Shown: one piece after another, positions 49,660 through 63,793 of the stretch | How the letters are laid out: each line of letters begins with the position of its first letter | Numbering within the stretch: position 1 is the stretch's first letter | Assembly (NCBI GenBank): GCA_950073835.1 | Contig: CATMRP010000003.1 | Location: forward strand, 1 to 64,000 | Length of the DNA: 64,000 nucleotides | Direction of reading: 5' to 3' | Source: an uncultured Alteromonadaceae bacterium | GTDB lineage: Bacteria; Pseudomonadota; Gammaproteobacteria; Enterobacterales; Alteromonadaceae | The notes under the pieces: generated by a model | The model's input: only the letters and a program-made list of their open reading frames with translations | Told to the model about the DNA's origin: nothing | Databases searched by the model: none | Made by a program: the position numbers and the translations under genes

Positions 49660-51720
49660 TTAAAATTGGGCGGTCAGGCCGAAGTAAAAGCTGCGACCCG
49701 GGGCGGGCTCGAAATAACCCCGACTGCTTACTTCCCGGTCGGCATTAGCGTTTACTCTGACATTCGAAAAATACATCTTATCGAAAAGATTACGCACACC
49801 GGCCTGAATTCGCAAAGTAGAAGTAACATCATAGCCAACCCGGCCGTTCACCAGCCAATACTGTGCTATTTCCGTTGTATTGCTGTTTTCTGCATAGTAG
49901 TTACCGCTGAATGTACCTTCCAGTTCCACTCGCCATGCATTTTGTTGCCAGTTGAGCTGATTAACCCATTGAATTTGGGGTAAGCCTGGCATCCGGTTGC
50001 CATCCAGGTTGTCGCCGCTGAGTGCGGCAAAGTCACCAAACTCATAGCGGGCAAGTGTCAGCGCGCTACGCCATTGCCAGCGTTGGTTAAGTTGCCACTG
50101 AAGGGCCGTTTCAAGGCCATGGCGATTGGTCTTGCCGGCATTTTCATAAAATGCCCGACCGTCAATCTCGTAGGCAATGAGTTCGTCGGTAACGCGGATG
50201 GAAAACAGCGCTACATCATAATTTAAATCGTTGTACTGGCCGCGCCAACCGAGCTCAAGACTCAAGGTATCCTGGGGTTTTAATACGGGATTGAAGCCGC
50301 TGCCCTGCGGGTTGGCAAACTCAGTAAAGGTAGGTGACTCATAGGCTGAAGCAACATTGGCGTACCATTGGTGTTGCGTGCCTGGCCGATAGCTTATACC
50401 AATGTTGCCATTCCATTGGTGATAGTGGCGCTCGCCTGAGCCTACCGCACTAAGGCCGAGCCGGTCGTTTATCGACATTGCAAGATCATCATAACGCACG
50501 CCGGTGGTCAGGGTGAGGGTGTCAAAGAGCAACCAGTCGACAATGGCAAATACGCCAACTGAAGTGGCTTGCTGCAATTCATCTGCGGTTTGCTGCTTGA
50601 CAACTTTATCCGGAGTGACTCTAAATCGGGTGCGGTCGTCTTCCTGACGGCGGATTTCTGCGCCTGCGGTATACCTTACTGGCCAGCCAGCGTTCTGCCA
50701 GTCCTGAGAAAGCTCAATACTGCCGCCATAAAACCAACGGTCGTACCTAATCAGACTGCTGCCAGGAAAGGGTAGCTGCTGGGTAAAGTTGCGATGGGTA
50801 GCAAAGGTATTGGCAGACCAGCTGCCATGCAAGATGTCCTTATCGTGGTATACCAGTCCGATGGTTTGCTGTGCCACTTGCTGCCCGCTGTTTAGTCTGC
50901 TGGCCATAAAGGTAGCCTGGCGTCGATCTGAAGTCACTTGCGCGGCGGTAAGGCCTCCCGGATCCTGTGCTTCAGGCATATCCATCAGCGAGGTGATTAT
51001 CGTAAAGCTTTTAGTGTCACTGAGGTCCCAGCGCAGTTTACCGCGCAGGGTACTTTTCTTTACCTGACTTTGTTCGCGGTAGCCGGCAAAGTTAAGGTGG
51101 CTCATGCTGATAACCGCGTCGATGTCGTTCTCGCTGGTGCCAGCCTGCAGGTTTACTTTATAAAAATCATGGCTGCCGACATTCAGGCTGGCATTAACTC
51201 CTTGCAGGCTATCGCCGGTCACAGTGGTGATATCAATTGCACCGCCAGCACCATTACCGTACTGCACCGCTGCTGCGCCCCGGATAACCTGTAATTGTTC
51301 GACGCTGTTTAAATCGATATCATCCACCTGGGTTTGGCCATCAGGCAATGTGTAAGGGATGTCATCAACCTGCAATTGCAGGCCGCGCACACCAAACGGA
51401 GCGCGCGAACCGAAACCGCGGATGGATATCCGCAGGTTTTGAGCAAAGTTATAGCGATTCTGAAAATATACGCCAGGCACAAATTGAAGCGCTTCGTCTA
51501 ACTGCAGTGCTTCCTGCAGTTGCAGTTCCTGCCGGGCATCGAGTAGCGAAACTGCCGCAGGGGTAGCAAAGAGATCCCGTGATAATCTCGTTGAAGTTAC
51601 TTTTACTACTTCAATATCTTCAACTGCTGGTGGTCCCGCAGAGGGTGTTACTGCTGCAGCCAGCAGAGGCGGGCTCATGAGAAGTAGGGTTAGTGAGGTC
51701 ATTAAGTGATGCTGAGTCAT
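49660..51720 (-). CDS. TonB-dependent outer membrane receptor, PqqU/YncD-like
   Basis: Plug domain and barrel; QNRYNFAQNLRISIRGFGSRAPFGVRGLQLQVDDIPYTLPDGQTQ, DPGGLTAAQV, NAGKTNRHGLE, YFEPAPGRSFYFGL resemble recalled E. coli YncD; ATG at 51720 preferred. Confidence 0.85.
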   Translation of the reverse strand: MTQHHLMTSLTLLLMSPPLLAAAVTPSAGPPAVEDIEVVKVTSTRLSRDLFATPAAVSLLDARQELQLQEALQLDEALQFVPGVYFQNRYNFAQNLRISIRGFGSRAPFGVRGLQLQVDDIPYTLPDGQTQVDDIDLNSVEQLQVIRGAAAVQYGNGAGGAIDITTVTGDSLQGVNASLNVGSHDFYKVNLQAGTSENDIDAVISMSHLNFAGYREQSQVKKSTLRGKLRWDLSDTKSFTIITSLMDMPEAQDPGGLTAAQVTSDRRQATFMASRLNSGQQVAQQTIGLVYHDKDILHGSWSANTFATHRNFTQQLPFPGSSLIRYDRWFYGGSIELSQDWQNAGWPVRYTAGAEIRRQEDDRTRFRVTPDKVVKQQTADELQQATSVGVFAIVDWLLFDTLTLTTGVRYDDLAMSINDRLGLSAVGSGERHYHQWNGNIGISYRPGTQHQWYANVASAYESPTFTEFANPQGSGFNPVLKPQDTLSLELGWRGQYNDLNYDVALFSIRVTDELIAYEIDGRAFYENAGKTNRHGLETALQWQLNQRWQWRSALTLARYEFGDFAALSGDNLDGNRMPGLPQIQWVNQLNWQQNAWRVELEGTFSGNYYAENSNTTEIAQYWLVNGRVGYDVTSTLRIQAGVRNLFDKMYFSNVRVNANADREVSSRGYFEPAPGRSFYFGLTAQF

Positions 51721-51823
51721 ATTGGCCTTGCTGATTCTGTCGTTAGTTGCCGATGTGTCGCGAACAGGTGAGTTCACGCAGTCATCGCTCTATTGGGGTT
51801 ATTGCCGTTTTGCGGGCAGGGGA

Positions 51824-52972
51824 TCAGGGACGAAAGCGAACATGTTCCCGTTGCAGGTCCTTTATGCTGCTGCAGCCCATGAGTCGCATGTCGCGTTCAA
51901 TTTCAGCCTGCATGAGCTTAAGGACCCGCTCCACACCTGGCTGTCCGGCCGCCGCCAGTGCATACAGGTACATCCGCCCTATTCCCACCGCTTTAGCGCC
52001 CAGCGCCAGTGCTTTAAGTACATGTGAGCCACGCTGCACGCCGCTGTCAAAAAGAACGTCGATATCATTGCCTACAGCGTCGACAATTTCGGCCAGTTGA
52101 TCAAAAGAGCTGCGTGAGCCGTCAAGTTGGCGTCCGCCGTGATTAGAAATCACGATACCGGTGCAGCCAATATCTACGGCACGTCTGGCATCTTCAACGC
52201 TCATAATGCCTTTTAAACAAAACTGACCATCCCAAAATTCAACCATGTCAGCCACATCCTGCCAGTTCATTGCCGGATCCAGCATATTGGTAAAATAATC
52301 ACCGATAGAGCTGCTGCCGCCGTCCATGTCAATATGGGCCTGAAGTTGTGGTAGGGAGAATTTTTCGTGGAGCAGATAGTTGATGCCCCAGGCGGGTTTA
52401 CGGGCAAATTCAACCATGCCGCCCAGGGTCAGACGAAAGGGTATCGAAAAGCCGGTACGTAAATCCCGCTCCCGATTGCCACCGGTGATTGAGTCTACCG
52501 TCAGCATCATAACTTGTATGCCACTGGCTTTCGCCCGTTCCATCATGGCCCGGTTAAGCTCGCGGTCTTTATGAAAATAAAACTGATACACCTGGGGAAT
52601 ATCAAAATCCTGTGCAATTTTCTCCATCGACACGGTGCCCAGCGACGACACACCGAACATGGTGCCAAACTTTTCGGCGGCGGCCGCAACTGCATATTCA
52701 CCTCGGTGGTGATATAACCGTTGTAGGGCGGTCGGAGAGCAGTACACAGGTAATTCAAGCCGCTGACCCATCACCTCAATACTCAGATCAACATCTTTGA
52801 CACCGCGAAGTACCCCGGGAATTAAATCACACTGATTAAAGGCTTCAGTGTTACGCCGCATGGTTACCTCGTCATCGGCACCGCCGTCGATGTAATTATA
52901 GATTGGGCCGGGCAGGCGTTTTTTCGCCAGGGTTCTGAAGTCCTGATAGTTATAGCATTGATTCAAGCGCAT
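51824..52972 (-). CDS. FMN-dependent alpha-hydroxy acid dehydrogenase
   Basis: LPGPIYNYIDGGADDEVTMRRNTEAF; CTGIVISNHGGRQLDGSRSSFDQL; VLFDSGVQRGSHVLKALALGAKAVGIGR. Confidence 0.95.
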   Translation of the reverse strand: MRLNQCYNYQDFRTLAKKRLPGPIYNYIDGGADDEVTMRRNTEAFNQCDLIPGVLRGVKDVDLSIEVMGQRLELPVYCSPTALQRLYHHRGEYAVAAAAEKFGTMFGVSSLGTVSMEKIAQDFDIPQVYQFYFHKDRELNRAMMERAKASGIQVMMLTVDSITGGNRERDLRTGFSIPFRLTLGGMVEFARKPAWGINYLLHEKFSLPQLQAHIDMDGGSSSIGDYFTNMLDPAMNWQDVADMVEFWDGQFCLKGIMSVEDARRAVDIGCTGIVISNHGGRQLDGSRSSFDQLAEIVDAVGNDIDVLFDSGVQRGSHVLKALALGAKAVGIGRMYLYALAAAGQPGVERVLKLMQAEIERDMRLMGCSSIKDLQREHVRFRP

Positions 52973-52994
52973 AGCGTGTTACTGCCTCTGTTCG

Positions 52995-55900
52995 TTACTG
53001 CGATAGGGTTGGGGGCGAAGATGAGCGTTGCTCAGTAGTTCCCCGATCGGCCTGGATGTATAAAAACTGGTTAGCCGGAATATTGTGAAACGTACTGACA
53101 CTTCCTGTTTTGTCTGGCCATTCAATAGTAATGATGTCGGCCTGGCTGGCGTCACCCAAACCAAAGTGCAGGGTAGACGGCGCACCGCTTAAAAATCCGC
53201 CGCCTGCGCGTACTTCCTGCAACTGGGTAGTGTTGCCGGTAGTCACATGCACTTTAGCGCCCAGTGCCCGGGTGTTTTGCGTACTATCGCGCAGGGTAAT
53301 GGATAAGTAGTTGTTGCTGGCGTCATCGTTGTGACGATTGGCATACAGTACCGGTCGCTGTTCGTGGTTACTGACCACAATATCCACATCACCATCCCGG
53401 TCGTAGTCCATGCAGACCACGCCGCGGCCAGAAAAGGTATCGGTGATCCCCCACTGACGACTGCGTTCTGTGAATGTACCGTCCTGATTAGAAATAAACA
53501 GCCGACTCGGGGTATTCTCAAACTCAGCCATGGCCTGCTTCAGGCGACGATACGCCAGCGGGTTACCAAGGTGGCGGCTAAGTTGTGGCGGCAGATCAAA
53601 ACCGTTAACGTGAAATAGATCCAACCAGCCATCGTTATTAAAGTCGGCAAAGCATGCGCCCCAAGCCCATAGCCCTTCGGCCACACCAGCCTGTGTTGTT
53701 GCATCCTCCAGCCGACCCTGGTGATTGTGGTACAGGCGGTTACCACTGACCCCCCAGCTACCTTCCGGCTTGCCATTCGGATCCCAGATACTGCTTACAA
53801 ACCAATCCAGGTAGCCATCGTTATCATAGTCTGCAACGGCTGCCCCCATGCCATTCTGATCTGAAATCTCATGGGTGTGGGTCTCTTTAGCAAAGGTACC
53901 GTCGCGGAGGTTTTTATACACCTGGCTGGTTTCAAAATCTGCTGCAAACAACAAATCCAGCCAGCCATCATTATTGATGTCGGTAAAGTTAGCGGTAAAT
54001 GTAAAGTCTGCATTGCCTACCAAATCTGTAAGGCCTGCCTCGGTATCCAGGCCTTCAAACCAGATCCCCTCCGAGCTGCTTATGTTGCGCCACAGGTGGG
54101 TTGGCTGTTCGCCGCCCAGTCCGGGGCCGCGCCAATGGTTGGTCAGCATGTCAACGGTGCCATCTTTATTGACATCGGCAAAAGCAAAAGACCAACTGGT
54201 AAGCTGTATTTGTAATCCGATGTCAGCGGCAACATGCAACTTTTGTTGCGCATCGTTGAGGTATAACGTGGGAAGCTGGGAGTCTGGCAACTGCATCTTT
54301 TGACCGGTGATGGATGGCAGTTCGGGCTGTAGCAGATTAGAGGTGAATAAATCCAGATCGCCGTCGCCGTCAATGTCTACCATGGCTGCACCGTTAGACA
54401 GTTCAACGCTGGTTAATCCCCACACTGTACTGACATCGCTAAAGGTGCCGTTTCGTTCATTTTTATACAGTACGTCTGCTGCCGCGTCGCCGGTTGCAAA
54501 AAATAGATCCGGCCAGCAGTCACCATCAATATCGCCGGCCGCCAGTCCACCGCTAAAGATCAGGCGTTGTGCCGAAGACAGGGTATAGTTCTCCCAATTG
54601 ATGTGATGTTTGTGAGCTAACCCGGCACTCACAGCGACTTCATCAAAGCGTTTGGCGCTTTGATGGCGGCTATGGTACTTGGCGAGAGACTGATGCGTCG
54701 GCGCAGAGCGGGAACAGCCAAATGCGTCACCGCTAAGCAACGCAGCAGGGAGCGCCGGGCCCGGGACCTGATGAGGCAGACTGGTGTGAGTTGCCTCCAG
54801 GTGTATGGCTACAGGTTGAGGGGGAGGCATATGGCCGCGAAATTCTGCTACGAGGCGGAGCTCGTCAGGGGCTGATGCATTGCTATCAGGTACCCATTTC
54901 GCCATACAGGCTCTATCGGTAATACAAGGATCGGTAAGGCTGGCTAGAAAGGCCTTTAAATCGTCTAGCTGCGTTTCTGTTAGGGTCAGGCCGGCAGGCA
55001 GCAGGCTGCTGCCTGCGGCTTGCTCCCGGTTAAGCTGAGCCAGTGCACCCTGGGTGTGTTGTTTACTGTCGCTAAGCAACCCGGCAACGTGCTTCAATTG
55101 CGGGTTGTTAGCAAAACTATAGTCAAACTGACTAACCGACTCATCCGGTGCCAAATGATGCGCAATGATGGCATCAAGATCCGTGAAAGCGCCAGCGTGA
55201 GTGTAGGGAGCGGTTGCCGTCACGTTTAGTAGTGAAGGAGTACGAAATCCGTATCGGTCTTTGTCTTGTTGTGTTACGCCGCGGCGGCCAAAATCTTCCC
55301 CATTGGGTTGTTTACCACGTCCAATCTGCACCGCAGCAATATTATGAAATTTCTCATCTGTAAAAATTGGCGGCGTATGGCAGTTTATACAACCTGCACC
55401 GCCCTTATCCGGACTGGTTAAAAATAGCTTTGCGCCGCGCTTCTGACTGGCCGTCAGCGCGTTGGTTTTACCGTTAACATAGTCAAACCAGGGGGCATCC
55501 AGCAAGATTTGAGTAGACTGATAATAGGAGATAGCAGTTTCGATATTGGCAAATGTAATCAGCGAATTCGGGCTGCCAGTGGGTGAGGCGAAGGCCTGCC
55601 GAAAGAGCTGCAGCCACTGCTGTACATTTTCGCTTTGTTTGAGCCGTTCGATCAGCGCGTGGCGTACCCCATCGTTAGTACTGTCGGCAGCAAAGGTATG
55701 GCCACGCATTTCATCGGTGGATATCACCGGAAAGCGCACCTGAGTGGCGAGTAAATCGCGTCCTGCAGAGCTATCGCCCTGCCACAAATTACTATCCGGT
55801 GTCCGGTGGCGCTGATCTTCACCATGGGAGCGTAAGGTCGGATCAAGCACAAAAATGCGCCCGTCATAAAACATCGAGCGGCTGTATAATGACGCGTTAA

Positions 55901-56315
55901 ACGTGGTTTGAGAGTGTCTGGCAACATTGGGTGTACCGTCAGCTTTTGGATCGGCCGAACGCTGCCAGTCATGCCAGCGTCCGGGTCCTACCCAATTGTC
56001 ATTATACGGTGACTCGCCAACCGGCAGGCTGAGGCTATCGCCCCCGGCAAGATATGGATGATGGCAACTGGCGCAGGCAACATCCTGATTACCGCTGAGT
56101 GATTTACTAAAGAACAGCTCCATGCCTAACCGAAACATTGGTGTTTCAGTTGACGGCGACACAGTATCAACCGTAAATGCATAAGAATCACTCAAGCTGT
56201 CTAACAGTTTGCTCAGCGCCTGCTCTTCATTGGCTTCCAGCCGCGCATTGCCACTGGCGCTGAACAGCGTCAGCAGTGTTACCATATATACCTTACCGCG
56301 ACCAATGAGCCCCAT
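52995..56315 (-). CDS. Fusion protein: di-heme cytochrome c peroxidase/MauG-like domain + FG-GAP/VCBS repeats + ASPIC/UnbV domain
   Basis: Hemes VACASCHHP and GAGCINCHTPP; DIDGDCWPDLFFATGD, DIDGDGDLDLF, NNDGWLDLLF, DYDRDGDVDIVV; C-terminal LGAKVHVTTGNTTQLQEVRAGGGFLSGAPSTLHFGLG. Confidence 0.92.
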   Translation of the reverse strand: MGLIGRGKVYMVTLLTLFSASGNARLEANEEQALSKLLDSLSDSYAFTVDTVSPSTETPMFRLGMELFFSKSLSGNQDVACASCHHPYLAGGDSLSLPVGESPYNDNWVGPGRWHDWQRSADPKADGTPNVARHSQTTFNASLYSRSMFYDGRIFVLDPTLRSHGEDQRHRTPDSNLWQGDSSAGRDLLATQVRFPVISTDEMRGHTFAADSTNDGVRHALIERLKQSENVQQWLQLFRQAFASPTGSPNSLITFANIETAISYYQSTQILLDAPWFDYVNGKTNALTASQKRGAKLFLTSPDKGGAGCINCHTPPIFTDEKFHNIAAVQIGRGKQPNGEDFGRRGVTQQDKDRYGFRTPSLLNVTATAPYTHAGAFTDLDAIIAHHLAPDESVSQFDYSFANNPQLKHVAGLLSDSKQHTQGALAQLNREQAAGSSLLPAGLTLTETQLDDLKAFLASLTDPCITDRACMAKWVPDSNASAPDELRLVAEFRGHMPPPQPVAIHLEATHTSLPHQVPGPALPAALLSGDAFGCSRSAPTHQSLAKYHSRHQSAKRFDEVAVSAGLAHKHHINWENYTLSSAQRLIFSGGLAAGDIDGDCWPDLFFATGDAAADVLYKNERNGTFSDVSTVWGLTSVELSNGAAMVDIDGDGDLDLFTSNLLQPELPSITGQKMQLPDSQLPTLYLNDAQQKLHVAADIGLQIQLTSWSFAFADVNKDGTVDMLTNHWRGPGLGGEQPTHLWRNISSSEGIWFEGLDTEAGLTDLVGNADFTFTANFTDINNDGWLDLLFAADFETSQVYKNLRDGTFAKETHTHEISDQNGMGAAVADYDNDGYLDWFVSSIWDPNGKPEGSWGVSGNRLYHNHQGRLEDATTQAGVAEGLWAWGACFADFNNDGWLDLFHVNGFDLPPQLSRHLGNPLAYRRLKQAMAEFENTPSRLFISNQDGTFTERSRQWGITDTFSGRGVVCMDYDRDGDVDIVVSNHEQRPVLYANRHNDDASNNYLSITLRDSTQNTRALGAKVHVTTGNTTQLQEVRAGGGFLSGAPSTLHFGLGDASQADIITIEWPDKTGSVSTFHNIPANQFLYIQADRGTTEQRSSSPPTLSQ

Positions 56316-56334
56316 TACCTTTTCCTTTCTTGCC

Positions 56335-56796
56335 TTACTTAATAGCGCTAACTGCGCTGCAACTACTGCCGCGCAAAAACTGGTTATTCACCAGCCGAAT
56401 TTCCAGGCCATCAGCAGACGGGCGGATGCGGTTTATCTTTACATCGCCCTGATAAAGCGTGCGGGTTTCGCCTTGTTCGCGACCAATATCTTTGCAGTTC
56501 GGGCTGTAATAAGCGGCATACTCGGTTTTTTCTGCCTGCTTTTTCTCGAACACGGTAACCACTCCGGTGCCACATTCCGCCATTGCGTAGATATCATCAT
56601 CCTGTGCGTATACCTGTACAGGTTTTGCTTCTTCGTCATTTATCCAGTGAATATGTTTATCTGGCGTACGGACAAAAAAGCCGCCCTGGCAACTCACGCC
56701 TGTCATTGGCTTAGCGGCACTGATTGCCTGGCTGCAAAACAACGTCATTAGCAGACCAGTGGTAACAGGAAGCATTAATTTATGTTTGTTGTTCAT
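56335..56796 (-). CDS. Small secreted Cys-containing protein of unknown function
   Basis: Signal peptide ending SQAISA; four cysteines in the mature part; inside the operon. Confidence 0.6.
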   Translation of the reverse strand: MNNKHKLMLPVTTGLLMTLFCSQAISAAKPMTGVSCQGGFFVRTPDKHIHWINDEEAKPVQVYAQDDDIYAMAECGTGVVTVFEKKQAEKTEYAAYYSPNCKDIGREQGETRTLYQGDVKINRIRPSADGLEIRLVNNQFLRGSSCSAVSAIK

Positions 56797-56808
56797 GGGG
56801 GTTCTCCG

Positions 56809-57450
56809 TTATCTGGGGGGCTTACCAAAGCCAATCCAACTATTAAAGTTGCCTGCCACCACTATTTCGTCATTCTCAACTTTGAGCGGTAATGCGGGCA
56901 GGTTTCGCGGTGCTGGGCCGGCCATCACAACTCCACTGTCTTTGGGGTTAAACACAGACTGGTGGCACGGACACATGTAGTTTTCCTCGTCTGTCATCCA
57001 GCCGGTAACCGGGCAGCCAGCATGGGTACAGATGGCTGAATAAGCCACCACACCACTTGCCGATAGTGCCTTGGTGTCATTGGACAGCTTGCTCTCGGGG
57101 AGCTTTTGCAGCAGCACCTGGTTGTAGCGCGAGCCGTCGCGGACAATGTTATTCTGCGCGTCGTAGGGCAAAATTAGCTGTTGTTTGTCGAGTTCGGCCA
57201 AATCGGATAGTTTTATAATCTGGCCGCGTTTGCTTTTACTGAAATACGTCAATCGGTCGCCGGGTTGTGGTGGCAGTCGCTCAGGTCGGTTCTGAGCAGC
57301 TGACAGCTTGCCGCTGACAGAGAGGTTGGCAATAGGAATGGCAAAGGCCAGGTACTTCAGCATGTCCCGACGAAAGCCATTATCTGGTCCATCATAATCC
57401 GCCTGGCAGCACCGGGATTGCCTGGCATTGTCAGATGTACGATTTGTCAT
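56809..57450 (-). CDS. Rieske [2Fe-2S] protein
   Basis: CTHAGCPVTGW...MCPCHQSVFNP; N-terminal RR-DMLKYLAFAIPIANL Tat/TM-like segment; ATG at 57450 preferred over 57537. Confidence 0.92.
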   Translation of the reverse strand: MTNRTSDNARQSRCCQADYDGPDNGFRRDMLKYLAFAIPIANLSVSGKLSAAQNRPERLPPQPGDRLTYFSKSKRGQIIKLSDLAELDKQQLILPYDAQNNIVRDGSRYNQVLLQKLPESKLSNDTKALSASGVVAYSAICTHAGCPVTGWMTDEENYMCPCHQSVFNPKDSGVVMAGPAPRNLPALPLKVENDEIVVAGNFNSWIGFGKPPR

Positions 57451-57543
57451 AGGATACCTTCTTACTTCTTTATTGAATCTGTTTATGTACAACGAACCTG
57501 GAAGCCGGCGCCAATGCGCCGACTTTCGTGACCTCAAAAAGGC

Positions 57544-59340
57544 CTAATCCGGCAGTGCAAAGACCCAGATCACCCCGCCCTCAGGGACATCTGCGATCCA
57601 TTCACCAGATTCATCTTTGTCGGCCAGAACACTGTTGGTCCAGTGTGCGTCTACGCCATAGCCAGCGGTAATAGCGATATATTGCTTACCATCAACTTCA
57701 TAGCTCACAGGGGGCGCAATGGCCGTTGAGTTAAGCGGGAATTCCCACAATACTTCGCCGCTTTCGGCGTCAAAGGCGCGTAGTATCCGGTCGTTAGTAC
57801 CAGCACCAAACACAATGCCGCCTGCTGTCGATAGCACAGGGCCCCAGTTCATGGTTTTGCCAAAGTCGTGTTGCCAGACTTTTTCGCGGGAATTGATATT
57901 CCAGGCCTGAAGTTGACCTACACCCTTGTTAGGGTCATCAAGGTAAACATCGAGGTCGGGAATATCGATGCCAGCCCAGAATTGCCCGGATGCAGGTTCA
58001 ACATCATCCTGAAATTTGCCGAGGAATGAGTTACATACGTTGTCATTGGCCGGCACATAAACCATGCCGGTTTGCGGATTATAAGACTCGTAAGGCCAGT
58101 TTTTACCGCCCCACAGACTAGGGCAGTAATCCACCCGTTTACCCGTGACCGGAACATGATCATAGTCGTAGGTAGGGCGACCGGTTTTTTTATTGAGCGA
58201 CTTAAAGGCGTTATTTTTAACAAAGGGTTTGCCTTCAACATAACCTATTTCACCGTCGTCACTGCGCTCCAGCCAATACATGTAGCCATTACGCTGAGGT
58301 GAGACCAGGCCCTTAACCGTTTTGCCATTTTGTTTAAAATTAACCAGCATTGGTGCATTCATGGCGGCCCAGTCCCATGAATCATTGTAATGGTACTGGA
58401 AATGGCCTTTGATCTTTCCGTTGTCCGGGTCCATGGCAATCGATGAAGCCACATAAAGGTTATCCCCGGGACGCTGATCACCGAGCCATGGTGAGCCGTT
58501 ACCCACTCCCCAGTAAAGTATGTCGGCCTCTGGATCGTAGTTACCCGGCATCCACATGCTTCCGCCACCATATTTCCATGCGTCGGGGCGTTTTCCTTGT
58601 TTTTTCCAGGTTTCATGACCTGGCTCCCCCGGACCTGGCACGCTGTATGTGCGCCATGCCTGTTCACAGGTTTCGGCGTCCATCGCTTCTAAAAAGCCCC
58701 GCACGCCATACTCGCCGCCAGACGGGCCGACCAGTATTTTGCCTTTCACCGGAGTGGGCGCCGAGGTGATATAAGCACCGATACTCCAGTCACCAATCTG
58801 CGCCTGACAAATGCGTTCCCCGGTTTTGGCATCCAGCGCATTCAAAGTGCCATCAAGTCCGGCGACATAGACTTTGTCGTCCCATAAGGCAATGCCGCGG
58901 CTGGTGTTATGCATCACCGACAGATCATAAGGATTGTCATGCTTATAGCGCCAGTAAACCTGCCCGGTTTTGGCATTCAAAGCGATCACGTGATTGTAGG
59001 GTGTTGATACAAACATGACGCCATTATTGACCTGGGCGGGTGCCTCATGGCCGGAGTCCAGGTTGGTGGAGTAGGTCCAGACAGGTGTGAGCTTTTTAAC
59101 ATTCTTTTTATTAATTTGCTGAAGTTCACTGAACATCCAGCCTTCGTAATTCCCTTTGGGTAGCAACCAATCTTTGGGGTTTGCTTCGTTTAACCGCTTT
59201 TGCGTGACAGGTGTGTAGTCTTCAATTTCTTTTGTTAGCTTGGTCAGACCGGCGGCTGATGCATATGAGCTAACCATGATACCTGCTAACCCCAGACAGC
59301 AACTAAGGTAGCTCAGGTGTGGAGCACTAGTTTTTTTCAT
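57544..59340 (-). CDS. PQQ-dependent dehydrogenase (methanol/ethanol dehydrogenase-like, no haem domain)
   Basis: Signal peptide; 8-bladed propeller W-docking repeats (ALNAKTGQVYWRYK, ALDAKTGERIC, AFDAESGEVLWEF); GVGNGSPWLGDQRPGDNLY; YHYNDSWDWAAMN; no CXXCH. Confidence 0.93.
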   Translation of the reverse strand: MKKTSAPHLSYLSCCLGLAGIMVSSYASAAGLTKLTKEIEDYTPVTQKRLNEANPKDWLLPKGNYEGWMFSELQQINKKNVKKLTPVWTYSTNLDSGHEAPAQVNNGVMFVSTPYNHVIALNAKTGQVYWRYKHDNPYDLSVMHNTSRGIALWDDKVYVAGLDGTLNALDAKTGERICQAQIGDWSIGAYITSAPTPVKGKILVGPSGGEYGVRGFLEAMDAETCEQAWRTYSVPGPGEPGHETWKKQGKRPDAWKYGGGSMWMPGNYDPEADILYWGVGNGSPWLGDQRPGDNLYVASSIAMDPDNGKIKGHFQYHYNDSWDWAAMNAPMLVNFKQNGKTVKGLVSPQRNGYMYWLERSDDGEIGYVEGKPFVKNNAFKSLNKKTGRPTYDYDHVPVTGKRVDYCPSLWGGKNWPYESYNPQTGMVYVPANDNVCNSFLGKFQDDVEPASGQFWAGIDIPDLDVYLDDPNKGVGQLQAWNINSREKVWQHDFGKTMNWGPVLSTAGGIVFGAGTNDRILRAFDAESGEVLWEFPLNSTAIAPPVSYEVDGKQYIAITAGYGVDAHWTNSVLADKDESGEWIADVPEGGVIWVFALPD

Positions 59341-59393
59341 TTTTTACCTCTGAAAGTCGTTTTGTTCGAGCAGAATGCCTAAATCAATTAACA

Positions 59394-59410
59394 TGCCAAT
59401 AACATTCCCC
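59394..59410 (-). promoter_or_regulatory. Candidate sigma-54 (-24/-12) promoter of the PQQ operon (weak match)
   Basis: minus strand GGGGAATGTTATTGGCA; GG-N10-GC spacing, about 55 bp upstream of ATG. Confidence 0.4.
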
Positions 59411-59875: not shown

Positions 59876-61870
59876 ATGATGAAACAAACTTCGCAATCTA
59901 TGGACGTTAGTGGTGCTGAAACATTTATGTCGGCCGAATTTCAGCTTCGAAATATTCAGCCGACAGAACCGATTTCCCGCTCATGGCAACGTAGCTTGCT
60001 AAAGCACGGCCTTGATCCGCATGCGACCAATGAGGTTGAAGTTTTATCGTCCTCAGAGATGCGATTGCAATTGCAGCAACAGGAAGACTATTTAAATATT
60101 GCCCGGCAGGGGCTAACTGGTTTATCCAAGCGAATTTCCGATGCAGGCTACTCGGTAGTGCTAACCGATGCTACAGGGTTAACCCTGGCGACAAATCTAC
60201 CTGATCGGGAAAAAGTCCGCAGCAAAGAATCCGGATTACTCATCGGGGCGCGTTGGGCGGAAGATCAGGTAGGTACCAATGGTATTGGTACCTGTCTGGT
60301 TGAAAAAGAGTCGATTATTATTCACCGGGATGAGCACTTTTATCCCAGTCACAGAGACTTAAGTTGTTCCGTTACCCCTATATTTGATCCAATGGGGGAA
60401 TTACGTGGCTGCCTGAACGCGTCATGTCTTGGCGCTGACAAAAACAGAAGCAGCCAGTTTATGACGCTGCAAATGGTCATGATGTACGGTCGAATGATTG
60501 AAAACAGTTATTTTCGCAAGACCTATCGTAATCAAATGACGTTGAATATCCGTCCGGCGGAAAGCTTTTTCGATTTGGCGCAGGAGCAGCTATTAGCGGT
60601 TAACGAAAGAGGCGTTATCACCGGGGCAAATCGTTCGTCATTTTTTGAATACTCGTCACTGCTGCCAACTGATCAACTGCTACCGGGGAGCCGGTTACAA
60701 GATATCATTGGTATTTCTATTGATGAGTTACTTACCAAAACAAACGGCGGTAGCAATGTTATAAAGGTTTATTCGCCGCTATTACTGGAAGAGATTGAAC
60801 TGGCATTGCGGGTGCCTGGTTCCCGGTCGGTGGCGTCTGCATCGGTTCGGACTGCTGCTAAAGCAGCCTCTCCCTTAACGTCAGGAAAGCATCCTTCACT
60901 GAACGAGTTAGGTGGTGAAGATCCACGGATGCAAAGAATCGCGCGACAGGTTCTGCAAGTTATTGATAAAGACATTCCAATTCTAATTACCGGCGAGACC
61001 GGCACGGGTAAGGAAGCCTTTGCCAGGGCAATCCATGATGCCAGTGCACGGGCCGACGGTGCCTTTATCGCATTAAATTGCGCTGCCATTCCTGAAACGT
61101 TGATAGAAAGTGAGCTATTTGGTTATCGCAGCGGCAGTTTCACTGGCGCCAATAAAAATGGTATGAAGGGCAAGCTGGAACTGGCCAATGGCGGAACCCT
61201 GTTTTTAGATGAAATTGGCGATATGCCTGTGCAACTGCAAACACGCTTGCTACGTGTGTTGGCAGAACGGGAAACAATGCCATTAGGTGCCACCGAGCCG
61301 ACGGCTTTGGACTTACAGGTTATTTCTGCCACCCACCAGGATCTGCGAGCGCGTATAGACCAAAAGGAGTTTCGGGAAGACTTTTACTACCGCCTCAATG
61401 GCATGGCTCTGAAACTGCCACCGCTAAGGGAGCGTACTGATAAATCGGCTATTATTGCCAATGTAGTAAGACGGGAGCTACAGCACTTGGGTGATTATCA
61501 AATTGATGAAAAGGCTCGCCAGGCTCTGGAAATGTATCACTGGCCTGGCAACATACGCCAGCTAATGAGCGTGTTGAAATATGCCGCTGCGGTGAGCGAA
61601 AACAATTTGATAACGCTTGATAGTTTGCCAGATGAGATTCTCGATCATCATTCGCTGGATACGTTAGATACGGAGCAAGAGACTGGCGTTGTCAAACAAA
61701 AGGCTTTGTCTAAGTATGCAGGCAGTCACGAAGGTCAGTTATTATTAGACACGTTAAAAAAACACCGGTGGAATATTACAACGGTGTCAGAAGAGCTCAG
61801 TATTTGCCGTTCAACGGTCTACCGAAAAATGAAAAAATACAATATTGTACAGCCTAACGATATTTACTAA
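59876..61870 (+). CDS. Sigma-54-dependent activator, AcoR-like (GAF-AAA+-Fis HTH)
   Basis: GETGTGKEAFARAIHDAS, GYRSGSFTGANKNGMKGKLELANGGTLFLDEIGDMP, C-terminal HTH TTVSEELSICRSTVYRKMKKY. Confidence 0.95.
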   Translation: MMKQTSQSMDVSGAETFMSAEFQLRNIQPTEPISRSWQRSLLKHGLDPHATNEVEVLSSSEMRLQLQQQEDYLNIARQGLTGLSKRISDAGYSVVLTDATGLTLATNLPDREKVRSKESGLLIGARWAEDQVGTNGIGTCLVEKESIIIHRDEHFYPSHRDLSCSVTPIFDPMGELRGCLNASCLGADKNRSSQFMTLQMVMMYGRMIENSYFRKTYRNQMTLNIRPAESFFDLAQEQLLAVNERGVITGANRSSFFEYSSLLPTDQLLPGSRLQDIIGISIDELLTKTNGGSNVIKVYSPLLLEEIELALRVPGSRSVASASVRTAAKAASPLTSGKHPSLNELGGEDPRMQRIARQVLQVIDKDIPILITGETGTGKEAFARAIHDASARADGAFIALNCAAIPETLIESELFGYRSGSFTGANKNGMKGKLELANGGTLFLDEIGDMPVQLQTRLLRVLAERETMPLGATEPTALDLQVISATHQDLRARIDQKEFREDFYYRLNGMALKLPPLRERTDKSAIIANVVRRELQHLGDYQIDEKARQALEMYHWPGNIRQLMSVLKYAAAVSENNLITLDSLPDEILDHHSLDTLDTEQETGVVKQKALSKYAGSHEGQLLLDTLKKHRWNITTVSEELSICRSTVYRKMKKYNIVQPNDIY

Positions 61871-62143: not shown

Positions 62144-63349
62144 ATGCAGTTTAATAAAATAGTACTAGCCACTTCTGCCTTAGCGCTGACTTATTTTAGT
62201 CCGGCTTCTGTTGCGCAGGAAAAAAGCCGGATTCAGTTGTCTGGTGCGGTGATGCAAAGTTGGCAGGCGGGGATGGAAGTCGACGGCGCAGCGGCGGACC
62301 CGGGCAATGCTAACACTGACTCTGGTTTTCATCGTTTGCGCTTTGCGTTAAATATTAATGCGCAGTTGACAGACAAGCTATCCGTTTTTGCCGAACTCGC
62401 CGAGGAACCCAACGACTGGAATAACGGCAGCGCTGCTATCAGCCAGGATTTAGCGTGGATACAGTATCAGATTAATCAGGAGGTGGGCGTCAGGCTGGGT
62501 AATATGATCGCTACCACGCAGAACTTCCTGCGCTACTCTGATGGTGCGGCAGTGCAAAGCAACCCATTTGTTGGCAATAGCCTGGTTGACATGATCACCG
62601 CAGAAGAAGGATTGTGGCTATATGGGGTACATAAACTGGCAGGCGGCAGCAGTATTACCTGGGACGGTACGTTGTCGACCCCGGACTTTTTCGCGGACTT
62701 TTCTGACGGACGAGGATACAACTACGGCTTACGCGGGACCTATAATTTAAGCAATGGTTTATCGTTTGCCGCAGGTGTTTTTTCCACCAATCATGAAATG
62801 AGTGCTGTAGAAGGGAAGACCGCTGGCTCGTTGATTGCTGTGGGAGACGGCGATAACTATCAGTTTGCCAGTTCGGCTCCGAATGCCAGAGTAACCCACC
62901 CGTTGATTGTGCCGGGCGTTGACGCCTTTATCTGGCAGGCTGATGTCCAATACATGACCGATACAGTTATGTTTCATGCCTTGTACGGGAGTGCAAAAGA
63001 CGATTATAGCTGGGAAAATGGCCAGGGGGCGTTTCAAACCAGCTATGTAGAACAGGAATCTGAAATGAAGTTTTGGTCTGTAGAAGGGCGCTATATGATT
63101 AATTCAGAGTTTTATGTTGCGGCCCGTTACGCCGAATCAGATAACGAAAGTGTTGGTATTACTGGCAATAACACCGCAAGCCGTTTGCAGTTGGGCGGCG
63201 GCTGGTGGATGAATGATTTCACGTTATTCAAAGCTGAATATGTTACGCAAGAGGAAGAACAGTATTCCGGAGGCGGTACTGCAGCATTCGGTGCTGCTGG
63301 TGGAGCAGAGTGGGACGGTATTATCGTTGAGATCTCAGTGACGTTTTAA
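62144..63349 (+). CDS. Porin-like outer-membrane beta-barrel protein
   Basis: Signal peptide ending SVAQ; HRLRFALNINAQLTDKLSVFAELAEEPN; terminal GIIVEISVTF. Confidence 0.78.
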   Translation: MQFNKIVLATSALALTYFSPASVAQEKSRIQLSGAVMQSWQAGMEVDGAAADPGNANTDSGFHRLRFALNINAQLTDKLSVFAELAEEPNDWNNGSAAISQDLAWIQYQINQEVGVRLGNMIATTQNFLRYSDGAAVQSNPFVGNSLVDMITAEEGLWLYGVHKLAGGSSITWDGTLSTPDFFADFSDGRGYNYGLRGTYNLSNGLSFAAGVFSTNHEMSAVEGKTAGSLIAVGDGDNYQFASSAPNARVTHPLIVPGVDAFIWQADVQYMTDTVMFHALYGSAKDDYSWENGQGAFQTSYVEQESEMKFWSVEGRYMINSEFYVAARYAESDNESVGITGNNTASRLQLGGGWWMNDFTLFKAEYVTQEEEQYSGGGTAAFGAAGGAEWDGIIVEISVTF

Positions 63350-63415: not shown

Positions 63416-63793
63416 TTAATTGTTTATAAATATAACGTGATTATTTCTGGCGTTGTTAACTGATAATCTAATACTATTTTGAGGGGGGGAGGCCTGAGTC
63501 TTCTGAAAAAAATAATCAGCTTCTTCCACTGATGAATAAATATCTATTGAATTGATTATTAAAAAGGCGTTTTCGTCAAATGAATTGTCAGGTTTTTGCT
63601 CAGTAAAAAAAGTTAGTGAATCTTCGATGGCTAATTTACATAACACTAACTCTGCTCTCTTCATGTCAAAGTTAGCTGGAATTTTTGTGCTGAGTATTTC
63701 AATTGTCTGCTGGTTAACTGAATTGGTGTATGGGCAGTTAATTTCAAAAATAGGTATGTGAATTCGGCTCAGTTTCTTTTTTAATCTGGTCAT
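63416..63793 (-). CDS. Hypothetical protein
   Basis: 125-aa ORF, no recognised motif. Confidence 0.4.
   Translation of the reverse strand: MTRLKKKLSRIHIPIFEINCPYTNSVNQQTIEILSTKIPANFDMKRAELVLCKLAIEDSLTFFTEQKPDNSFDENAFLIINSIDIYSSVEEADYFFQKTQASPPQNSIRLSVNNARNNHVIFINN

Follow-up and report, generated by a model that had tools for sequence, protein, structure and literature searches.

A PQQ dehydrogenase operon with a Rieske protein and a PqqU-like receptor: a candidate system for diol oxidation in marine bacteria

We analyzed a 64,000-nucleotide stretch of DNA from an uncultured Alteromonadaceae bacterium (positions 1 to 64,000 of contig CATMRP010000003.1 in assembly GCA_950073835.1; "the window"), and in particular a six-gene operon on its minus strand that includes a pyrroloquinoline quinone (PQQ) dehydrogenase. 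We propose that this is a sigma-54-regulated operon for oxidizing a diol in the periplasm, with a Rieske protein as the electron acceptor and a PqqU-like receptor that supplies PQQ. We put the probability of this whole model at roughly 50%. In the model, a calcium-type PQQ dehydrogenase would make a hydroxyaldehyde from a short 1,2-diol (1,2-propanediol being the most likely), and its electron acceptor would be the periplasmic Rieske protein from the same operon, not a cytochrome c. AldA would convert the hydroxyaldehyde to lactate, and a flavin mononucleotide (FMN)-dependent dehydrogenase would convert lactate to pyruvate. The receptor would carry PQQ to the periplasm, as a supplement to the cell's own synthesis in the window species and as the main supply in relatives that lack pqq genes. 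A protein with MauG and ASPIC domains may mature a small secreted protein, or else these two proteins may relay electrons together.

The dehydrogenase (598 amino acids; 57544..59340, minus strand) belongs to the methanol/ethanol family, with a score of 526 bits for TIGR03075 (the cutoff is 480 bits). As compared to ADH IIB and 43 homologs, it retains the calcium-binding Glu and Asn motifs, the catalytic Asp, and the Trp motifs. At the positions of the vicinal cysteine pair, it has valine and methionine (VM). We then scanned GTDB species genomes for similar dehydrogenases and found 49 loci, down to 47% identity. Nine of these carry an operon of the same type as the window's, and one of the nine (L059) is almost identical to the window. 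The calcium motifs and the catalytic Asp are present in all 44 of the clade members of sufficient length for alignment, and the adjacent cysteine pair is present in none of them.

Nearly all of these dehydrogenases are next to a Rieske gene: it is found in 46 of the 49 loci, and the three exceptions are on truncated contigs. The window's Rieske [2Fe-2S] protein (56809..57450, minus strand; PF00355) has a twin-arginine-like leader and is predicted to be periplasmic, and its cluster ligands, CTH and CxCH, are invariant across 12 aligned homologs. The operon contains no gene for a small cytochrome c, and has the Rieske gene instead. In an independent draw of 369 genomes from the same class, we found two further members of the clade (~47% identity). 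Both lack the cysteine pair and both have a Rieske neighbor. Among other PQQ dehydrogenases in this sample, judged on the 27 whose loci were examined, 26 have the cysteine pair, and a Rieske gene was not found within 1.5 kb of any of the 27.

Why might the missing cysteines matter? In ExaA, the vicinal disulfide is essential for efficient electron transfer to cytochrome c550, according to a passage in PMC12997753 that cites Mennenga 2009. We infer that the dehydrogenase gives its electrons to the Rieske protein, in place of a cytochrome c. Alternatively, the Rieske protein could have a role in assembly or sensing, with the electrons going to an unlinked cytochrome c or to the diheme MauG protein. 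The marine operons do encode a diheme protein as well, and co-occurrence alone does not prove electron transfer. However, the MauG/ASPIC gene is missing from most of the loci with the Rieske/dehydrogenase pair, and the disulfide that this passage links to cytochrome c550 is missing across the clade. We consider this alternative somewhat unlikely.

The ped/exa clusters of Pseudomonas (PMC12997753) also feature a periplasmic PQQ alcohol dehydrogenase of the methanol/ethanol family, and they act on short alcohols and diols. Unlike those clusters, the window's operon has neither the vicinal disulfide nor an adjoining gene for cytochrome c550; it has a Rieske protein, and the associated aldehyde dehydrogenase is of the AldA type. 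In the open-access literature, we found no relevant account of a Rieske-linked quinoprotein dehydrogenase or of a matching propanediol cluster, which is weak evidence of novelty. Related dehydrogenases, where we found accounts of them, pass electrons to cytochrome c, a transfer in which the disulfide is believed to take part. Having no disulfide and being encoded next to Rieske genes, the present clade is a natural test of this idea, and the pairing may represent a new route for electrons out of PQQ enzymes. We consider the Rieske pairing to be the part most worth following. (Neither the recurrent pairing nor the missing disulfide was part of the original prediction for this DNA, which was made from the window alone.)

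We also looked at active-site types. A lanthanide-type active site for the window's dehydrogenase was considered and rejected, as its motif is DSWDWA. Two distant, Rieske-paired members of the clade (L147 and L148, ~47% identity) carry DSWDWD, with an Asp two residues past the catalytic Asp, which is typical of lanthanide enzymes. The window's genome also encodes two paralogs of the dehydrogenase on other contigs (L055:9564-11348 on C34 and L056:381-2243 on C16), both with the vicinal cysteine pair. The paralog on C34 has a lanthanide-type motif (DGWDFD), and a gene for a small CXXCH protein is nearby.

We then considered the substrate. An AldA-like aldehyde dehydrogenase is encoded just beyond the end of the window (C3:64033-65514). 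AldA-like proteins, with at least 45% identity to E. coli AldA, are found near 26 of the 49 loci, and most of those that we first examined are 55-60% identical to it. The neighbors at other loci include lactate oxidation proteins of the LutA/LutB type, a lactate permease, an LldR/PdhR-like regulator, a molybdenum aldehyde oxidase, and pyruvate dehydrogenase E1. The recurring theme of these neighbors appears to be the conversion of a diol to a hydroxyaldehyde, a hydroxyacid, and then a 2-oxoacid. Because the neighbors include AldA, LutAB, lactate permease, and pyruvate dehydrogenase, the best fit is probably the route from 1,2-propanediol via lactaldehyde and lactate to pyruvate.

The operon's own contribution to this route would be the FMN-dependent alpha-hydroxyacid dehydrogenase (382 amino acids; 51824..52972, minus strand; PF01070), which is in the lactate/glycolate oxidase family. 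The original prediction placed hydroxyacid oxidation after the PQQ dehydrogenase. This is plausible but incomplete, as AldA adds an aldehyde step. Because the AldA-type gene adjoins the end of the window, the whole path from diol to 2-oxoacid may be encoded here. In E. coli, where 1,2-propanediol and ethylene glycol are oxidized with FucO and AldA, an AldA-type aldehyde step is likewise combined with hydroxyacid oxidation, but FucO is nicotinamide adenine dinucleotide (NAD)-dependent, while the first enzyme of the window's path would be a periplasmic PQQ enzyme.

The last gene of the operon encodes a TonB-dependent receptor (49660..51720, minus strand, with a likely ATG start at 51720). Its motifs had been thought to resemble those of PqqU (YncD), which is the PQQ importer of E. 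coli and of many Gram-negative bacteria (PMC12124388), and this resemblance is real. First, the receptor's best matches in PDB are PqqU/YncD (6v81 and 9c4o, with E = 4e-78 and 6e-78); the next-best match has E = 1e-14. Second, PqqU can be identified by Y/F/W99, R304, and R365 (Munder et al., PMC12124388), and in the alignment the receptor has F99, R304, and R365. We compared five other receptors from the same genome, and not one of them has all three of these residues. The homology to PqqU is full-length, and Q84, Q121, Q308, and R536 are kept as well. Third, in a tree with 24 rows, the receptor is tentatively placed as sister to nine PqqU sequences and outside the PqqU clade (support 91/98), with a long branch and few outgroups. 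From these comparisons, we conclude that the receptor is PqqU-like. It differs from PqqU/YncD in that its gene sits inside a PQQ dehydrogenase operon. In Tahibacter, Pseudoxanthomonas, and Nevskia, such a Rieske/dehydrogenase pair is next to a true PqqU gene (~600-650 bits).

Does the window's organism need to import PQQ? The original prediction noted that the window lacks pqqABCDE and proposed that the organism relies on exogenous PQQ. The first statement is true of the window but misleading: pqqABCDEF are found together on another contig of the same genome (C20). (The models for pqqD, pqqC, pqqE, and pqqB score above their cutoffs; pqqA and pqqF were assigned by sequence and place.) The gene content indicates that this organism has the genes for making PQQ, and the proposed reliance does not hold for it. 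Of the two findings that the original prediction had named as counting against it together, a full set of pqq genes at another place in the genome and dehydrogenase activity that is independent of the receptor, the first is what we found.

The other carriers of the operon give a more varied picture. The PqqU-like receptor is present in Pseudoalteromonas CO133X and P. arabiensis, neither of which has pqqB, pqqC, or pqqE. In both, the operon's dehydrogenase is the only match to TIGR03075 and the operon's receptor is the only PqqU-type match. Two Aliiglaciecola lack pqqB, pqqC, and pqqE, and a 2.7-Mb metagenome-assembled genome (MAG) lacks pqqC and pqqE; all three have an unrelated receptor at the position of the PqqU-like one. 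A complete Aliiglaciecola genome (G372) lacks pqqB and pqqE and has the same receptor as the other Aliiglaciecola. The window's species and Alteromonas C1M14 have both the pqq genes and the PqqU-like receptor. The pattern over the nine loci fits with PQQ import, although so small a table does not amount to a statistical test. The two Pseudoalteromonas genomes lend support to a role in PQQ uptake, as first suggested, but dependence on scavenging is not supported for the window's species.

The unrelated TonB receptor in the operons of Aliiglaciecola and the MAG (L061:17520-19565, L062:17746-19791, and L132:5678-7723) is a candidate for a second type of PQQ receptor, or it may be a receptor for the substrate. 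The window's genome contains a relative of it, far from the operon (C16:30120-32111; L135 and L139).

Gene content, the kinship and signature residues of the receptor, pqq status, the Rieske pairing, the missing disulfide, and the neighboring modules are computational results, and the substrate, the path of the electrons, the transport of PQQ, and the roles of MauG and the small protein are what the model proposes on top of them. Several points weigh against our model. The neighboring genes do not prove the substrate, and ethylene glycol is also compatible with AldA. The same machinery might convert ethylene glycol to glycolaldehyde, glycolate, and glyoxylate: AldA acts on both lactaldehyde and glycolaldehyde (PMC11166783, PMC12214560), and the PDB relatives of the FMN enzyme include both lactate and glycolate oxidases. 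But LutA/LutB, the lactate permease, and pyruvate dehydrogenase in the relatives point to lactate and pyruvate, and we think that ethylene glycol is an unlikely substrate.

As for the receptor, PqqU is its best model in NCBIfam, but at 337.5 bits it does not reach the curated cutoff of 1200. (This cutoff is narrow: true PqqU proteins from other genera score 560-720 bits, which is also below 1200.) Positions 274 and 477 of PqqU are altered (K274 to Q and N477 to T), and Q310 is replaced by L. Furthermore, the receptor in the Aliiglaciecola operons is of another kind; Neptuniibacter marinus and the Rhodobacteraceae MAG have pqqC and pqqE, and we saw no receptor in their operons; and given the pqq genes in the window's genome, the receptor may be dispensable there. 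The receptor could have a different cargo, for example the substrate or a metal chelate. The changes at K274 and N477, the long branch of a clade that is sister to PqqU, and the different receptor in the same place in Aliiglaciecola would all be consistent with another cargo. On the other hand, F99, R304, R365, R536, Q84, Q121, and Q308 are kept, and the pqq-less Pseudoalteromonas, which have a PQQ dehydrogenase, have no PqqU-type receptor besides this one, so a different cargo seems improbable. Finally, the original proposal, in which the operon is dedicated to scavenging PQQ for an organism unable to synthesize it, would account for the PqqU-like receptor within the operon and for the relatives that have the same operon without pqq genes. 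For the window's genome, it is refuted by the complete pqqABCDEF unless that locus is inactive, and we consider it very unlikely; it may still hold for the Pseudoalteromonas carriers.

The Pseudoalteromonas carriers, with one TIGR03075 dehydrogenase, one PqqU-type receptor, and no pqqB, pqqC, or pqqE, would offer a direct test of PQQ sharing among bacteria in the sea. More broadly, there may be a branch of quinoprotein alcohol dehydrogenases, spread across the Proteobacteria, that dispenses with the disulfide and with cytochrome c, reduces a dedicated Rieske protein in the periplasm, and serves a 1,2-propanediol pathway, with a PQQ importer in the operons of some marine lineages: a PqqU-like one in the window, and in Aliiglaciecola a receptor of a second kind not recognized before. 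We would give this broader proposal slightly less than even odds.

The six-gene operon itself is real. The six minus-strand open reading frames have the positions and order that were first reported, and the domain assignments also hold up in Pfam and NCBIfam (PQQ dehydrogenase, Rieske, CCP_MauG with FG-GAP and ASPIC, FMN_dh, and TonB receptor). Of the reported gaps, those of 12, 19, and 22 bp are correct, as is the gap of ~103 bp before the receptor's ATG, but the gap of 6 bp is an artifact because that open reading frame was bounded at a TTG (it reaches 57537). Because of the homologs and a twin-arginine-like motif (FRRDMLK), we place the start of the Rieske protein near 57450, at a likely ATG, which is ~93 bp past the stop of the dehydrogenase.

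The order of the first four genes is conserved among the nine operons, which come from Alteromonas, Pseudoalteromonas, Aliiglaciecola, Neptuniibacter, and a Rhodobacteraceae MAG, among others. Because these genes recur in order across genera, the arrangement is not due to chance. The gene for the FMN dehydrogenase is present in six of the nine; we rejected it as a core part, as the operons of Alteromonas C1M14, Neptuniibacter, and the Rhodobacteraceae MAG do not have it. The receptor is missing or of another type in five of the nine. The MauG/ASPIC fusion and the small protein co-occur in these nine loci and nowhere among the remaining 40, and the fusion gene is present in just 5 of 399 genomes from the family. 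Because the operon is patchy while the dehydrogenase is 84-90% identical across genera, these comparisons suggest horizontal transfer.

The fusion protein (1106 amino acids; 52995..56315, minus strand) combines a MauG-type diheme domain (CCP_MauG), FG-GAP repeats, and ASPIC/UnbV. It has two c-type heme motifs, CASCH and CINCH, and both CXXCH are kept in all nine orthologs. The small secreted protein (153 amino acids; 56335..56796, minus strand) has no match in Pfam or NCBIfam. In an alignment of its homologs, four cysteines are invariant, as are W51, Y63, and Y97. It is predicted to be all-beta, with moderate model confidence, and in a fold search nothing matched this model at E ≤ 0.001; the only hits were weak and propeller-like. 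Like the MauG-family diheme enzymes (MauG, MbnH, and those associated with His-Xaa-Ser), the fusion has a CCP_MauG domain, two CXXCH motifs, and a gene for a small secreted partner. Unlike them, its domain is fused to FG-GAP and ASPIC, and the small protein resembles none of the known MauG substrates. By eye, a conserved pair of histidines is near the position of the Met ligand of peroxidases. That the MauG domain matures the small protein is a guess, and an electron relay is equally likely.

A sigma-54-like promoter, TGGCATGTTAATTGAT, lies 58 bases 5' of the dehydrogenase's ATG (59383..59398, minus strand), and similar elements are found 55-83 bases 5' of the dehydrogenase in eight of the nine operons; these are consensus matches only. 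A divergent sigma-54 activator (59876..61870, plus strand; PF00158 and HTH_8) is the probable regulator of the operon, and such an activator adjoins most of the operons and is a neighbor in 31 of the 49 loci. In generic scans for promoters and terminators, sites were no more numerous than in shuffled sequences; the sigma-54-like element emerged from a comparison between the operons.

Beyond the activator is a probable outer-membrane porin (62144..63349, plus strand), which adjoins seven of the nine operons. It has no match in Pfam and was called by eye. In the non-marine loci, a protein of ~300 amino acids with no match in Pfam is encoded beside the Rieske/dehydrogenase pair (21 loci; for instance, L074:6938-7888). 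Another protein with no match in Pfam (125 amino acids; 63416-63793, minus strand) is encoded between the porin and aldA, and by eye, similar small open reading frames are in the equivalent place in two other loci (L093 and L062).

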